Positions 26,548 through 31,572 of a DNA stretch of 64,000 nt are shown piece by piece (the stretch's first letter is position 1; the number at the start of each line of letters is the position of its first letter). The notes under the pieces were generated by a model. That model was not told the DNA's origin. It saw only the letters and a program-made list of their open reading frames with translations, and did no database searches. Made by a program: the position numbers and the translations under genes. The stretch covers positions 1,302,001 through 1,366,000 of the forward strand of contig NZ_AP018725.1 in NCBI RefSeq assembly GCF_003967195.1, read 5' to 3'. This DNA is from Sulfuriflexus mobilis (GTDB lineage Bacteria; Pseudomonadota; Gammaproteobacteria; AKS1).

Positions 26548-27351
26548 ATGCATGGACGTCAGATTACCCGCCTGTTTTCAAGCCTGTTATTATTCCCGGC
26601 CCTGATGGCCAGTGCAGAAACCCGTCCCTGTGAGGCCGAGAGTGGCCCCAATCGTGTGGCCTTGCTGGAACTCTATACCTCGGAAGGTTGTAGCAGCTGC
26701 CCACCAGCGGATGCCTGGCTGAGCCGCCTGGAGGGGCAGGGCATTACTATGGATAAACTCGTCCCCCTGTCGCTGCATGTCGACTACTGGAACTATATCG
26801 GCTGGCGCGACCCTTATTCCTCCGCGCAATATACCGCCCGTCAACGTGAGGTGGGTCAACGCAATCGGCTGCGCAGTATCTACACCCCGCAAATGGTCCT
26901 TAATGGCCGTGATTACCGGGGCTGGAGGGGGGGAGATATCCACCGCCAGGTGACCGCGGTCAACAATCAGCCTGCCGCGGCCACTATCCAGCTAAAGTGG
27001 TCCGAGTCTGGGGAGGGCGCACAATCTTCATTGTCTATCAAACTGCGGGCAGAACTTAATGCTGAACAGGCGATTGCCCAACCGGTGGTGCATATCGCCT
27101 TATTTGAAAATCACCTGGTCAGCCACGTCGATGCCGGTGAGAACGATGGTCGCAGCCTTAAACACGATTACGTCGTTCGTCGCCTGTTCAATTACCCCTT
27201 TGCCGACGGTCGACGTGTGTTTTCCCGGCAGTTCAGTCTGCCCATGAATAAGGATTGGGATCGTGACGCACTGGGCCTGGCCGTGTTTGTGCAGGATAGC
27301 CGGCGGGGTGAGGTCCTCCAGGCCATGGCACAGGCTATTGATTGTAAATAG
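26548..27351 (+). CDS. secreted DUF1223 thioredoxin-fold protein
   Basis: A 267-residue protein with an N-terminal signal peptide (cleavage likely after LMASA near residue 23). The start of the mature region, VALLELYTSEGCSSCPPADAWL, is the DUF1223 signature and looks like a thioredoxin fold with a CSSC motif; VDYWNYIGWRDPYSS and TPQMVLNGRDYRGW are further family blocks. It is predicted periplasmic; a redox function is suggested by the CxxC motif but not known. GAGGGAGAG precedes the ATG. It is 77 bp after the DUF2818 gene and 135 bp before the sensor kinase. Confidence 0.87.
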   Translation: MHGRQITRLFSSLLLFPALMASAETRPCEAESGPNRVALLELYTSEGCSSCPPADAWLSRLEGQGITMDKLVPLSLHVDYWNYIGWRDPYSSAQYTARQREVGQRNRLRSIYTPQMVLNGRDYRGWRGGDIHRQVTAVNNQPAAATIQLKWSESGEGAQSSLSIKLRAELNAEQAIAQPVVHIALFENHLVSHVDAGENDGRSLKHDYVVRRLFNYPFADGRRVFSRQFSLPMNKDWDRDALGLAVFVQDSRRGEVLQAMAQAIDCK

Positions 27352-27486
27352 CATTCTCCCTTTTACTCACGAATATCTATAGATACTAATATACGCTAGT
27401 TACATGTTTTTAAATAAAAAAACCTGTGACAGCAAGAGAGAGTGTGCTAGGATTCTGCAAACTGCAACGTTTTCAGGAAGAGAGAC

Positions 27487-29457
27487 ATGCCGCTACGCCA
27501 AAAACTATTTCTCATCCTTGGCGTGATGACCCTGGTGCCATTACTCATCCTGCAATTCGGTGTCGTCGAACAAATCGAAGTCGATCTGGAACGACGTATT
27601 GCCGCAGAATTGCAGGGGAAATTGAGCAAGATGGGGGTCGAACTCGATACCCTGATTGAGAACCAGATGGCGCTTGCCGCCGGGCTTGCCGAAGCACCGG
27701 TTCTGCAGGATTTCAGCCATATATCCGTGGACGGTGATGATAGTCACTACGATGACATGGCCCTCGCCGTTCAGGATTTTTTCTATAACTACCAGCAACG
27801 GGTCAGGAATATTCAGGCCTTACGTTTCATGGACAGCAAGGGTAAGACCCTGGTCAAGGTCAAGGAAGGCCATCCTGTTATACCGCAACTGTATGACGAT
27901 GAACGTGAGCGTTACTTTGTGGCTGACCAGTCAAACCGTCCATTTTACAAAGCGGCAGTAAAAGACTCCGGCCGGGTATACGTATCTGACTTTGAACTTG
28001 GGCAGGTACAAAAAGATGCTGACTTCTGTCCGTCAATGATGCGTTACTCTGTACCTATACGTAATGGCCTGAATGAAGTTGAAGGCATGGTGATCCTTAA
28101 TATGTGGGGCACCCGTATCGATGAGGCTGTCAAGGCTGCGATCAGCGGTTATACCGGTAAGGCCTATATCGTTGAAGTAAATGATAAACCGCATCGCGAT
28201 GGTATTTACCTGTTCCATGAAGATAATAAACAACGCTTCGCCAATCAATTGGGAACGAATTACCGTTTCTCTACTGACCTGGGTGAGAAACCCTGGCAGC
28301 GGATCAGGAATGCATTGGCGCCGGGTTATATGCTCATGGATGATGGGCGTATGTTCTTCTATCAGCACTATTCTCCTTACCAGGACAAACGATCTTCATG
28401 GGTACTGATAATTGAAACCTCTTACGACGAGGTGTTTGCACCCATTAAAAAAATTCGTTCAACGATCTGGTTATTAGTGGCGGTATTGTTGTTGCTTAGC
28501 CTGATGATGGCGCGCTGGGTCGCCTCGCGGATGGCAAGGCCGGTGCAGGACCTGGCGCAGACGATAACCCGTTATGCCGATGGCGAAAGTAGTGCGCGCT
28601 ATCGGGATAAGGAGCGCATTGACGAGATTGGTATTGTTGGCAAGGCCTTTAATTATCTGTGTAGTACGCTTGAACGCACGCGCGATGAGCGTGATAAGGC
28701 AGTTCAGTCAGTTTGCCAGTCGGAAAGGCTGGCCGCCGTCGGGCAGATGGCTGCTGGCATCGGGCATGAGATCAATAACCCCTTAATGAATATTATGTCA
28801 TTGGCAAAGTTGATTGAGGAAGCTGTTGCGGAATACGATGACGCGGAAATCAAGGCTGATTTGAAAACCTTGCAGGAAGAAGGTGGGCGTTGCGCAAGGA
28901 TTGTTCAGGGGATTCTGAAATTTGCCCGTGCCAGCGAACCCAGTTACGAAAGTTTCCAGCTTGGTGTCTTAATGCATGACACGATCAGGTTGCTACGTCA
29001 CCGTGCCGATGCGGCCTCACTGAAGATTGAGACTGATATCGAAGAGGGTATTGACATGCAGGGCGACCCCAATCAGCTGCAACAAGTGTTTGTAAACGTC
29101 ATCCTTAATGCGATTCATGCCTCTTATACGGGAGGCATGATCAAGGTTATGGTTTGCCGTAAAGGTGAGAAAGCCCGTGTCGAAATTTCTGATCAGGGTA
29201 AAGGTATCCCGGAACAGGAGATGCCCCGGGTATTCAATCCATTTTATTCCACTAAGCCGGAAGGCCAGGGCACCGGGCTGGGGTTGGCAGTGAGTTACGG
29301 CATTATTAATAAGCACGGCGGCCATATTAGTATCGAAAGCGAGATAGAAGAAGGTACCTGTGTACGCATTGACTTACCCCTGGTAGGTATGCCAGCCGAG
29401 AGTATTGAAAAAGACGAATTAAAAACAATGAGGGAGTTAAAACGTGCAGGCGGATAG
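27487..29457 (+). CDS. membrane sensor histidine kinase, NtrB/ZraS-like with Cache-type periplasmic domain
   Basis: A 656-residue kinase. TM1 spans about 7-28 and TM2 about 325-345, bracketing a ~290-residue periplasmic region whose blocks (RVYVSDFELGQV, MRYSVPIRNG, GMVILNMWG) resemble double-Cache sensor domains. A HAMP segment (ARPVQDLAQTITRYADGES) leads to the HisKA box AAGIGHEINNPLMNI with phosphorylatable H427, then the N-box (VNVILNAIHASY), DQGKGIPEQ and GTGLGLAVSYG of the HATPase domain. Its end overlaps the response regulator start by 14 bp, so the two genes are a coupled two-component system. The ligand is unknown. AGGAAGAGAG is the ribosome site. Confidence 0.93.
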   Translation: MPLRQKLFLILGVMTLVPLLILQFGVVEQIEVDLERRIAAELQGKLSKMGVELDTLIENQMALAAGLAEAPVLQDFSHISVDGDDSHYDDMALAVQDFFYNYQQRVRNIQALRFMDSKGKTLVKVKEGHPVIPQLYDDERERYFVADQSNRPFYKAAVKDSGRVYVSDFELGQVQKDADFCPSMMRYSVPIRNGLNEVEGMVILNMWGTRIDEAVKAAISGYTGKAYIVEVNDKPHRDGIYLFHEDNKQRFANQLGTNYRFSTDLGEKPWQRIRNALAPGYMLMDDGRMFFYQHYSPYQDKRSSWVLIIETSYDEVFAPIKKIRSTIWLLVAVLLLLSLMMARWVASRMARPVQDLAQTITRYADGESSARYRDKERIDEIGIVGKAFNYLCSTLERTRDERDKAVQSVCQSERLAAVGQMAAGIGHEINNPLMNIMSLAKLIEEAVAEYDDAEIKADLKTLQEEGGRCARIVQGILKFARASEPSYESFQLGVLMHDTIRLLRHRADAASLKIETDIEEGIDMQGDPNQLQQVFVNVILNAIHASYTGGMIKVMVCRKGEKARVEISDQGKGIPEQEMPRVFNPFYSTKPEGQGTGLGLAVSYGIINKHGGHISIESEIEEGTCVRIDLPLVGMPAESIEKDELKTMRELKRAGG

Positions 29458-30811
29458 TATAAAAATTTTATTTGTCGATGATGATCCGGTTACCTGCAAG
29501 GTTATGCAACGCCAGTGTGGCAAGGTCGGTTATGATTGCCGTGTTTTCCAGTCGCCACTTGAGTGTCTGGACAAATTCGCCAGTTCGGGTGCCGATATTG
29601 TTGTAACCGATTTGCGCATGCCTGAAATGAATGGTTTTGACCTGCTTACCGAGTTGCGAAATATTGATCCAGAGATACCGGTAATGGTCATGACCGGGCA
29701 TTCCTCGGTTGAAAATGCCGTCGAGGCCATGAAGCGCGGTGCGGCCGACTTTATTAAAAAGCCTTTTGATTTTGACGAGTTCAAGTTAACCCTTGAACGT
29801 ACCATTGAGGCACAGCGACTAAAGAAGGAAAATAAATTACTCAAGAAACGCCTGCGTCGTTCGGGTAACCGCTTTGGTATGATTGGTGACAGTCCGATAA
29901 TGCGTTCACTCTTTACCAAGATCGAGAAAGTCGCCGAGGTAAGTTGTAACGTTATCATTACGGGTGAATCCGGTACGGGTAAGGAACTGGTTGCCCATGC
30001 CTTGCACGAGTATAGCCCACGTAAAGATTGCCCACTGGTGGTGATTGATTGCGGGGCGTTGACCGAGACGCTGCTTGAATCTGAACTATTTGGCCATGAA
30101 AAGGGGGCCTTTACCGGGGCCAACCAGCGTAAACAGGGCCTCATGGAGCAAGCCAGTGGCGGGACCTTGTTCTTTGACGAGGTGTGTAACATCTCTGACA
30201 CCATGCAGATGAAACTCATGCGAGCGATCGAAGATCAACGTGTCACCCGTGTTGGTGGCACCAAGTCGACAGCAATCGACCTGCGCATTGTCGCGGCGAC
30301 CAACCGCAACCTGGAGTCTCTGGTCGAAGATGGTAGTTTTCGCCATGATTTCTACCATCGCCTCAACGTCGTCAACATACGTGTACCGTCACTGGACGAA
30401 CGGCGCGAGGATATCCCGTCACTGGTCGAGTATTTCGTTGAGGATTTTGTCACCAAGTACAACCGTAATGTTAGTGGTTTCGACAGCCTCTCCATGAAAC
30501 GTCTTTGTGATGCACCCTGGCCGGGCAATATACGTGAGCTACGCAATACCATTGAGCGTTGCGTGATCCTCTCTGATGGGCCTGTACTGACCTGGGCAGA
30601 GGACATGGCCGAGGTAGAAGACACGGCCGTCTTTAGTGAAGGTTTCTTCGATGGTTCGAGTTTTGTGACCCTCGACGAGTTGGAAGAGGCCTATATCAGC
30701 CACGTCTTAAGCCATGCCAAGGGTAAAAAGACCTATGCTGCACAAATCCTTGGCATTGACAAAACTACCCTGTGGCGAAAACTGAAAAAGGCGAACGGGG
30801 CCCCTCACTGA
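29444..30811 (+). CDS. sigma54-dependent response regulator, NtrC family
   Basis: A 455-residue activator that starts with GTG inside the end of the kinase gene. Domains in order: receiver with ILFVDDDP and phospho-acceptor D56 in VVTDLRMPEMNG; AAA+ sigma54-interaction domain with Walker A GESGTGKE (about 174-181), the sigma54-contact loop GAFTGA (221-226), Walker B GTLFFDEV and arginine-rich sensor segments; C-terminal Fis-type helix-turn-helix (about 430-452, YAAQILGIDKTTLWRKLKK). The intact GAFTGA loop predicts a true sigma54 activator. Two sigma54-like promoters lie in the 250-bp gap downstream, ahead of the DsrE-like gene, which is the probable target. Confidence 0.94.
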   Translation: MQADSIKILFVDDDPVTCKVMQRQCGKVGYDCRVFQSPLECLDKFASSGADIVVTDLRMPEMNGFDLLTELRNIDPEIPVMVMTGHSSVENAVEAMKRGAADFIKKPFDFDEFKLTLERTIEAQRLKKENKLLKKRLRRSGNRFGMIGDSPIMRSLFTKIEKVAEVSCNVIITGESGTGKELVAHALHEYSPRKDCPLVVIDCGALTETLLESELFGHEKGAFTGANQRKQGLMEQASGGTLFFDEVCNISDTMQMKLMRAIEDQRVTRVGGTKSTAIDLRIVAATNRNLESLVEDGSFRHDFYHRLNVVNIRVPSLDERREDIPSLVEYFVEDFVTKYNRNVSGFDSLSMKRLCDAPWPGNIRELRNTIERCVILSDGPVLTWAEDMAEVEDTAVFSEGFFDGSSFVTLDELEEAYISHVLSHAKGKKTYAAQILGIDKTTLWRKLKKANGAPH

Positions 30812-30834: not shown

Positions 30835-30850
30835 TGGCTGAAACATTGCA
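30835..30850 (+). promoter_or_regulatory. sigma54-type promoter (-24/-12) upstream of the DsrE-like gene
   Basis: TGGCTGAAACATTGCA has the -24 TGGC and -12 TTGCA elements, with exactly 10 bases between the invariant GG and GC. It lies 24 bp after the gene for an NtrC-family activator and about 210 bp upstream of the DsrE-like gene, giving an expected start near 30861. Assigned by consensus match plus context. Confidence 0.65.
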
Positions 30851-30872
30851 AAATGCACCAAAATTATTTCTG

Positions 30873-30956: not shown

Positions 30957-30972
30957 TGGAATAGTATTTGCA
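30957..30972 (+). promoter_or_regulatory. second, weaker sigma54-like promoter
   Basis: TGGAATAGTATTTGCA keeps the GG and GC with 10-base spacing and a TTGCA -12 element, but the -24 region deviates (TGGA rather than TGGC). Expected start is near 30983, inside a 14-bp tandem repeat and about 78 bp before the DsrE-like ATG. Confidence 0.45.
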
Positions 30973-31001: not shown

Positions 31002-31060
31002 TAAAATGATTACAAGACAACAATATTGTTGATTTGGGAAACGAGAGAGGAGAAGTAATA

Positions 31061-31525
31061 ATGATTACAATTAAAAAGACCCTGACACTTGCTGCCGCCG
31101 GTGTTGTTGCTGTCGCCCTGACCGGTTGTGCCGGTACTGCAGAGCGCGGTGCCGCGAAGAACGGTTATCAAAAGCAGAAAGTGGTTTACCACATGAATGA
31201 CCTTCAGAAGGGCTATGCGGGTCTGCGTAACATGAAGAACCATCTGAATGCTCTTGGTGACGAGAACCTGGAGGCCATTATGGTCTTCCATAGCTCCGGT
31301 GGTTTTGTCCTGGTTGATGGCAAGAAAGACAAGAAGGGTCACACCTTTGGTGATGAGATCCAGGCACTGGCCAACCGTGGCGTGAAGTTTGCCCTGTGTG
31401 CCAACACGGTTCGCGGTAAGAAGATTCCGAAAGACAAGATCAACCTGAATGCAGAAATTGTCCCTTCAGGCGTTGCCGAAGTGGCCGAACTGCAGTACAA
31501 GGGCTACGTATACATCAAGCCTTAA
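31061..31525 (+). CDS. DsrE/DsrF-like family lipoprotein
   Basis: A 154-residue protein with a lipoprotein signal: KK at residues 5-6, a hydrophobic stretch and the lipobox ALTGC with C23. The mature part fits the DsrE/F-like fold: VVYHMNDLQKGYAGLRNMKNHL, a IMVFHSSGG strand-loop, and GVKFALCANTVRGKKI with a single cysteine C113 at the place where family members hold their conserved cysteine. DsrE-type proteins often move sulfane sulfur, but they are usually cytoplasmic; this one should be membrane-anchored outside the cytoplasm. The AGGAG-containing leader favours ATG 31061 over a frame start at 31034. Two sigma54-like promoters lie upstream and a strong terminator downstream, so it is a single-gene unit probably driven by the adjacent two-component system. 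Confidence 0.85.
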   Translation: MITIKKTLTLAAAGVVAVALTGCAGTAERGAAKNGYQKQKVVYHMNDLQKGYAGLRNMKNHLNALGDENLEAIMVFHSSGGFVLVDGKKDKKGHTFGDEIQALANRGVKFALCANTVRGKKIPKDKINLNAEIVPSGVAEVAELQYKGYVYIKP

Positions 31526-31544: not shown

Positions 31545-31572
31545 AACCGGGCCTTATGGCCCGGTTTTTTTA
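31545..31572 (+). terminator. rho-independent terminator after the DsrE-like gene
   Basis: AACCGGGCC-TTAT-GGCCCGGTT followed by five more T residues, 20 bp after the stop codon. Confidence 0.93.

Follow-up and report, generated by a model that had tools for sequence, protein, structure and literature searches.

An exported DsrE-like protein encoded after a dCache kinase and a sigma-54 response regulator in Sulfuriflexus mobilis, and its link to Sox genes

The sequence analyzed here is a 64,000-nucleotide stretch of the Sulfuriflexus mobilis genome (contig NZ_AP018725.1, positions 1,302,001–1,366,000), hereafter the window. Three consecutive genes on its forward strand are considered. The first (27487–29457, +) encodes a sensor histidine kinase in which Pfam and a model of the sensor reveal a dCache sensor followed by HAMP, HisKA, and HATPase domains. 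The second (29444–30811, +) encodes an NtrC-type response regulator with the Pfam domains Response_reg, Sigma54_activat, and HTH_8; the GAFTGA motif is present in its sigma-54 activator domain. The third gene (31061–31525, +) starts with ATG and encodes a DsrE-like lipoprotein of 154 amino acids. An AGGAG ribosome-binding site was read from the sequence at 31048–31052 (+). Downstream of the gene, AACCGGGCC, TTAT, and GGCCCGGTT form a terminator-like hairpin followed by a T run (31545–31571, +), which was recognized by eye and is absent from the output of a sigma-70/terminator scan that was otherwise uninformative. A gene for a DUF1223 protein (26548–27351) separates the nuoN-like and kinase genes; it occupies the same place in congeners L004, L005, and L126 and was not seen in the other loci compared.

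The 154-amino acid protein scores 37.8 bits against Pfam DsrE (PF02635), above the cut-off of 22.7 (E = 2.4e-9); none of the NCBIfam models comes close to its cut-off with this protein. A phmmer search of solved structures identified MTH1491 (1l1s; E = 1.3e-7) and ST0148 (2pd2; E = 4.9e-6). The AlphaFold2 model, calculated with 12 orthologues as input, has a mean pLDDT of 81.6, with 105 of 154 residues at 90 or above and residues 1–28 below 50. Among solved folds, the model resembles ST0148 (Z = 20.2), MTH1491 (18.9), and YchN (15.5), and it matches the sulfur-relay folds of TusBCD chain A (14.1) and DsrE (2hy5_A; 13.4). A Foldseek search with the model listed the same DsrE-like folds. The MTH1491/ST0148/YchN group (1l1s, 2pd2, 1jx7) is thus nearest to the window protein in sequence and fold. 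The matches to MTH1491 and ST0148 span from query residue 40 and begin at chain residue 2–5, indicating that these two proteins lack an export signal of the kind found in the window protein. We know of no two-component partner for members of this group.

Only two cysteines are present in the protein, and their codons were checked: C23 in the sequence ALTGC and C113 in FALCANTVRG. C113 (codon 31397–31399, +), the predicted sulfur-bearing residue, is invariant in 12 of 12 orthologues and in all 15 chosen DsrE-domain rows, which represent several subtypes and include the cytoplasmic-type DsrE of the same genome, with whose cysteine C113 aligns. The phmmer alignments pair C113 with the cysteine of MTH1491 and with that of ST0148 as well. 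When the orthologue alignment profile was compared directly with the single sequence of the organism's own DsrE by hhalign, no match was obtained, so the link between the two runs through Pfam, the fold, and the multiple alignment. An initial annotation of this DNA had proposed a DsrE-like fold, a lipobox at C23, and a sole other cysteine, C113, at the position of the conserved DsrE cysteine. The open reading frame, the model, and the alignments bear out each of these points, and neither of the two outcomes that the annotation had named as fatal to it, a different fold or an unconserved C113, emerged. By the DsrE-like gene, the closest named relative is a Sulfuriflexus MAG (83% identity).

DsrEFH of Allochromatium vinosum and TusBCD of E. 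coli, which share the fold of the window protein at the Z scores of 13.4 and 14.1 given above, are cytoplasmic heterohexamers. DsrEFH is described in the available text of PMC13047784 as a double heterotrimer. By comparison, the window protein is exported and stands alone, its gene following that of a sigma-54 regulator; a search of the window with PF02635, the DsrE/DsrF family, gave no second match, and by this measure a dsrE-dsrF-dsrH set is absent.

The lipobox LTGC occupies residues 20–23 and follows a signal-like stretch, the arrangement characteristic of lipoproteins. Under the lipobox rule, residues 1–22 (31061–31126, +) would constitute a type II (lipoprotein) signal peptide and C23 (codon TGT, 31127–31129, +) would be the lipidated residue. 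In enterobacteria, the residue that follows the lipidated cysteine directs membrane placement. Ala, rather than Asp, follows C23, which by this +2 rule points to a probable location in the outer membrane. The lipobox is found in 5 rows of the 12-row orthologue alignment (the window protein, L004, L005, L006, and L007), and the other seven rows carry, by eye, a signal peptide of the non-lipid type. Application of the lipobox rule to 34 orthologues assigned 21 as lipid-anchored and 13 as not, including L083 (MPAC), which is non-lipid under the rule but ambiguous; on a quick tree, this distribution requires 4 changes. A signal-like N-terminus of one type or the other was recognized by eye in all 34 printed orthologues. 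Matches to the orthologue profile (E ≤ 1e-10) occur in 98 of 369 gammaproteobacterial genomes, and the printed N-termini again resemble signal peptides by eye. What is conserved in this branch is thus export and C113, and the lipid is a trait of lineages. Because lipidation varies, the tether is not the distinctive part of the protein, and we rejected the lipid anchor as its distinguishing feature. The initial annotation had presented DsrE proteins as normally cytoplasmic, which is too strong for a branch with so many exported relatives, and had drawn attention to the tether; its fold, lipobox, and conserved cysteine are retained here, and the emphasis on the anchor is not. The distinguishing feature is the two-component/sigma-54 module, together with its connection to Sox genes.

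Our main finding is that a dCache histidine kinase, a sigma-54 response regulator, and an exported DsrE form a conserved module. Kinase, regulator, and DsrE lie on one strand in all 30 DsrE-linked loci of the set used for the kinase tree, from which L122, L126, L127, L141, and L142 were removed because they are fragmentary or nearly duplicate other rows. This order on one strand is also seen in 10 of 12 named loci, the two others (L010 and L015) beginning within the gene or too close to it, as well as in further genomes. A search of 369 genomes with the kinase sensor domain identified 26 places with E ≤ 1e-99, one per genome. DsrE adjoins the kinase on the same contig in 23 of these, and the module is split at contig ends in two (G186 and G003). 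In the last, G286, the kinase frame is cut short at masked bases, and no regulator or DsrE could be identified next to it. The two places that rank next in this search (E = 8e-79 and 3e-72) likewise lie upstream of an exported DsrE, which is of another subtype. A search of plasmids returned only 11 distant matches. For comparison we used 42 loci in which DsrE occurs without a kinase in the stretch read, including L068, whose module is cut by a contig end. In two distant carriers, a porin-like gene was noted by eye downstream of the module (L123:1872–3260, −; L124:7847–8905, +).

The gap between the regulator and DsrE-like genes contains two candidate control elements. A sigma-54-type promoter, TGGAATAGTATTTGC, is predicted at 30957–30971 (+) and agrees with the consensus at 8 of 10 bases. 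The sequence TGCAAAATGCA (30847–30857, given without strand), of the form TGCA-N3-TGCA, stands 99 nt before this promoter and is a putative binding site of the response regulator by virtue of its recurrence in such gaps. With a scoring devised after the site had been seen in the window, sigma-54-like sites (at least 8 of 10 consensus bases) precede DsrE in 24 of 30 module loci, against 1.26 expected from shuffles, and precede 6 of 41 DsrE genes for which no kinase was found. The 30 kinase-linked loci in this count include L063 and L062 in place of L006 and L007 and leave out L123 and L124. TGCA-N3-TGCA occurs in 26 of 30 regulator-DsrE gaps (shuffle mean 0.21, maximum 2), largely the same gaps in which the motif was first spotted. 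Of the 15 gaps between regulator and SoxY in the paralogous system described below, 13 contain it as well (shuffle mean 0.15, maximum 2). L139 and L150 yielded no usable gap for the latter set, and L153, L162, and L164, in which SoxY lies further off, were left out. In the DsrE gaps, a spacing of 3 is far above the rest, and other TGCA spacings appear in at most 2 of 30. In the Sox gaps, the only other spacing that stands out is 10 (7 of 15), which fits repeated units. The site is absent from L074, L075, and L107; in the nearest two congeners, it carries one mismatch and the sigma-54 site is degenerate.

When the whole genome was searched for TGCA-N3-TGCA combined with a sigma-54 site at a gap of 50–111, five places were identified: one before soxY (two overlapping matches), one before the DsrE-like gene, and three others, of which two are inside open frames and one overlaps the end of an opposite-strand gene and is not followed by a clear gene. 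As a control, the pattern was also run backward, and it matched once in each of the two genome searches. Judged from sequence, the combined site is convincing genome-wide only before soxY and the DsrE-like gene. The window holds a second TGCA-N3-TGCA just before the kinase gene (27456–27466, no strand given), where it is possible that it mediates autoregulation of that gene. With two matches in the 64-kb window and 2.27 expected, this kinase-side copy is not significant on its own. The palindrome CAACAATATTGTTG (31018–31031) was also noted between the promoter and the ribosome-binding site; its core is kept in L004 and L005.

Sulfuriflexus mobilis is listed among sulfur-oxidizing isolates in the available text of PMC6397845. 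Its complete genome (3.11 Mb) encodes SoxB and DsrA over cut-off, and the profile search detected no soxC over cut-off. A paralogous kinase-regulator pair at C1:57406 is followed by SoxY (177.4 bits; cut-off 125) and SoxZ (145.6 bits; cut-off 76), as scored by NCBIfam models. We examined all 34 lower-scoring kinase places (E = 1e-40 to 1e-20), some of which stop at a contig end, and found SoxY and/or SoxZ downstream on the same strand in 20, including L139 and L150, where the SoxY/SoxZ scores are weak (about 50 bits). In one of the 34, L155, the second gene past the regulator encodes an exported DsrE from a different subtype, although the kinase lacks the sensor cysteine discussed below. Sox genes also accompany the module itself. 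DsrE has soxYZ or soxB in its neighborhood in 11 of the 30 module loci, as compared with 1 of 42 DsrE loci in which no kinase was found. In nine of the 30, soxZ/soxY are located beyond DsrE on the opposite strand, within 0.3 kb in seven and at distances of 1.1 kb in L012 and 2.5 kb in L013; in L011, only soxZ falls inside the contig. In two of the 30, soxB is the next gene after DsrE on the same strand, with SoxB of L108 over cut-off. No sox gene was seen beside the DsrE-like gene in S. mobilis, and the link in this organism accordingly runs through the paralogous system, the shared sites, and the relatives.

At the level of genomes, soxB exceeds its cut-off in 23 of 26 module genomes versus 147 of 369 overall (Fisher p = 1.5e-7, kinship ignored), and dsrA in 20 of 26 versus 111 of 369 (Fisher p = 4.1e-7, kinship likewise ignored). 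SoxC is not depleted (6 of 26 module genomes versus 51 of 369 overall). The module is therefore no simple replacement for SoxCD, and we rejected that explanation.

A related arrangement has been described in Acidithiobacillus caldus, where the sigma-54 two-component system TspS/TspR lies upstream of the sox cluster that it regulates, according to the available text of PMC6335251 and PMC12194929. Like TspR, the window regulator is a dedicated sigma-54 response regulator with GAFTGA. As far as the published descriptions at hand extend, the systems are set apart by the DNA site (TGCA-N3-TGCA in the window versus the reported TspR site TGTCCCAAATGGGACA; PMC6335251), by the sensor (dCache versus the sCache of TspS; PMC12194929), and by the adjacent target (DsrE versus sox). 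The Sox-linked kinase-regulator pairs found here may belong to the TspS/TspR kind. Those linked to DsrE appear, from their sequences, to be a separate clade with a different target. In the portions of the open-licence literature available to us, we came across no account of a module of this kind that includes a DsrE with an export signal or lipid anchor.

The model of the kinase sensor has a mean pLDDT of 86 and finds dCache-type matches in the PDB. The sensor region contains a single conserved cysteine, Cys181 (codon TGT, 28027–28029, +), in the motif DFCPSMMRY. Cys181 occurs within [DEN][FW]CP in 27 of 28 kinases of a first set and in 29 of 30 DsrE-linked kinases of the tree set. None of the 34 lower-scoring kinases has this cysteine or any cysteine within the eleven printed residues, in an alignment that is rough at this column. 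On the quick tree, the DsrE-linked kinases form one clade and the other kinases another; the match between the cysteine and DsrE thus amounts to a single evolutionary event. In the L075 kinase, Leu replaces Cys181 and DsrE is still present; this copy, which lacks Cys181, the sigma-54 site, and the TGCA site, looks as if it were decaying. Cys181 could not be placed in the sensor model because it falls in a loop of low confidence (mean pLDDT of 52 for block 141–150). Four cysteines (18, 25, 32, and 41) were also noted in the receiver domain of the regulator (29444–29600). These are frequent in DsrE-linked regulators (20 to 25 of 28) and might form a cytoplasmic binding site for metal or sulfur.

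The interpretation that we favor, and consider reasonably probable, is that the window protein is an exported, membrane-tethered sulfane-sulfur carrier of the DsrE family that is induced by the adjacent two-component system and works with SoxYZ. This proposal builds on the computed fold, the conserved C113, the lipobox after a signal-like stretch, the conservation of the module, the recurrent promoter and TGCA site, and the sox link. The DsrE-like protein would reside on the periplasmic side, tethered to the membrane through a presumably lipidated C23. The dCache kinase would detect periplasmic sulfur species, perhaps via Cys181, and phosphorylate the sigma-54 response regulator, which would then bind TGCA-N3-TGCA at 30847 and switch on the sigma-54 promoter at 30957. 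C113 would take or deliver sulfane sulfur in the compartment that houses SoxYZ and SoxB. The proposed control circuit and its link to sox are supported by conservation. Sulfur carriage is suggested by the fold, the cysteine, and the neighbors; we infer, further, a persulfide on C113, its exchange with SoxYZ, the nature of the inducing signal, and a regulator that acts as an activator rather than a repressor.

SoxYZ resembles the window protein, as proposed here, in being a periplasmic carrier with a sulfur-bearing cysteine, and in S. mobilis it is preceded by a related kinase-regulator pair and by the same DNA site. The fold of SoxYZ differs from that of DsrE, and the SoxY cysteine is located in a C-terminal GGCGG arm, unlike C113. 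An exported DsrE carrier under the same control site as soxYZ would be a concrete candidate for periplasmic sulfur handling, and the module hints that sulfur passes through a step beyond the cytoplasm that has not been studied.

The main rival to the carrier interpretation makes the lipoprotein an accessory sensor for the adjacent kinase: sulfur loaded on C113 would modulate the kinase by way of Cys181, through a mixed disulfide or persulfide transfer. We give this a modest chance. CpxP and NlpE, which modulate CpxA, offer a model for such a role, and control of the lipoprotein gene by the regulator would create feedback. The three genes are tightly associated, and each of the two periplasmic partners carries one conserved cysteine; the lower-scoring kinases, which lack the cysteine, are those tied to SoxY/SoxZ in 20 of 34 places. 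Anti-sigma-like proteins with a C-terminal DsrE-like domain, described below, suggest that the fold serves envelope signaling elsewhere. However, a target gene that lies beside its regulator needs no sensing role, and the co-occurrence of cysteine and DsrE counts as one event on the tree. Moreover, L075 keeps DsrE without the cysteine, and Cys181 sits in a loop of low model confidence. A sensing role is compatible with carriage, and both can be true.

A bolder version of the carrier proposal, which we regard as speculative and rather doubtful, would combine these functions in a new periplasmic relay: C113 would accept sulfane sulfur from SoxYZ, or polysulfide, and Cys181 would read the load by thiol exchange. 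One module would then both strip sulfur from SoxYZ and report its supply. In Acidithiobacillus without SoxCD, the sulfane sulfur of SoxYZ is expected to be released in a way that is not known, as stated in the available text of a review (PMC6335251); the relay, if it exists, might provide the acceptor missing from published accounts of the truncated Sox pathway. Because the kinase sensor has just one conserved cysteine, sulfane-sulfur sensing across the membrane could be tested with point mutants.

An alternative that we find improbable is that the DsrE fold is used here beyond sulfur transfer, for thiol redox buffering, metal binding, or a role in envelope stress. Such a role would fit the 41 of 42 exported-DsrE loci without a kinase that have no sox neighbor in the stretch read, and the titles of the nearest structures, MTH1491 and ST0148, describe these proteins as hypothetical or without a known function. 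The sox link of the module, the site in common with soxYZ, and the enrichment in sulfur oxidizers point to sulfur instead. It is highly improbable, and we rejected, that the protein is a DsrE/TusD of the usual cytoplasmic kind whose hydrophobic start arose by chance, as its Pfam family name might imply: the signal-like N-terminus seen by eye is kept in 34 printed orthologues, the window has no partner gene of the DsrE family, and the organism's own dsrE- and dsrF-like pair sits elsewhere, near dsrA (C1:1654491–1655316).

Returning to the exported carrier that we favor, its gene is one of several in the genus for DsrE-family proteins with export-type features. The S. mobilis genome encodes further members with signal-like N-termini at C1:2291483 (−) and C1:2773670 (+). 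Congener loci L019–L021 encode an exported DsrE that belongs to a further subtype; L019 and L021 have a lipobox, and L020 does not. In a different architecture, an anti-sigma-like N-terminus and a hydrophobic stretch precede a C-terminal DsrE-like domain that keeps the cysteine, and the gene lies beside that of an ECF sigma factor; this neighbor was Pfam-tested only in L092 and assigned in the others by similarity to L092. S. mobilis has two such proteins, at C1:2863708 (L029:1012–1746, +) and C1:1126188 (L032:1495–2226, −), and others are found in L090, L091, L092, L095, L099, L104, L106, L110, and L119. Pfam DsrE is over cut-off in L029 and L106 and below it in L092, L104, and L032; RseA_N is below cut-off in L029 and L032. 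These anti-sigma-like proteins may represent a second route by which exported DsrE domains have entered envelope signaling.
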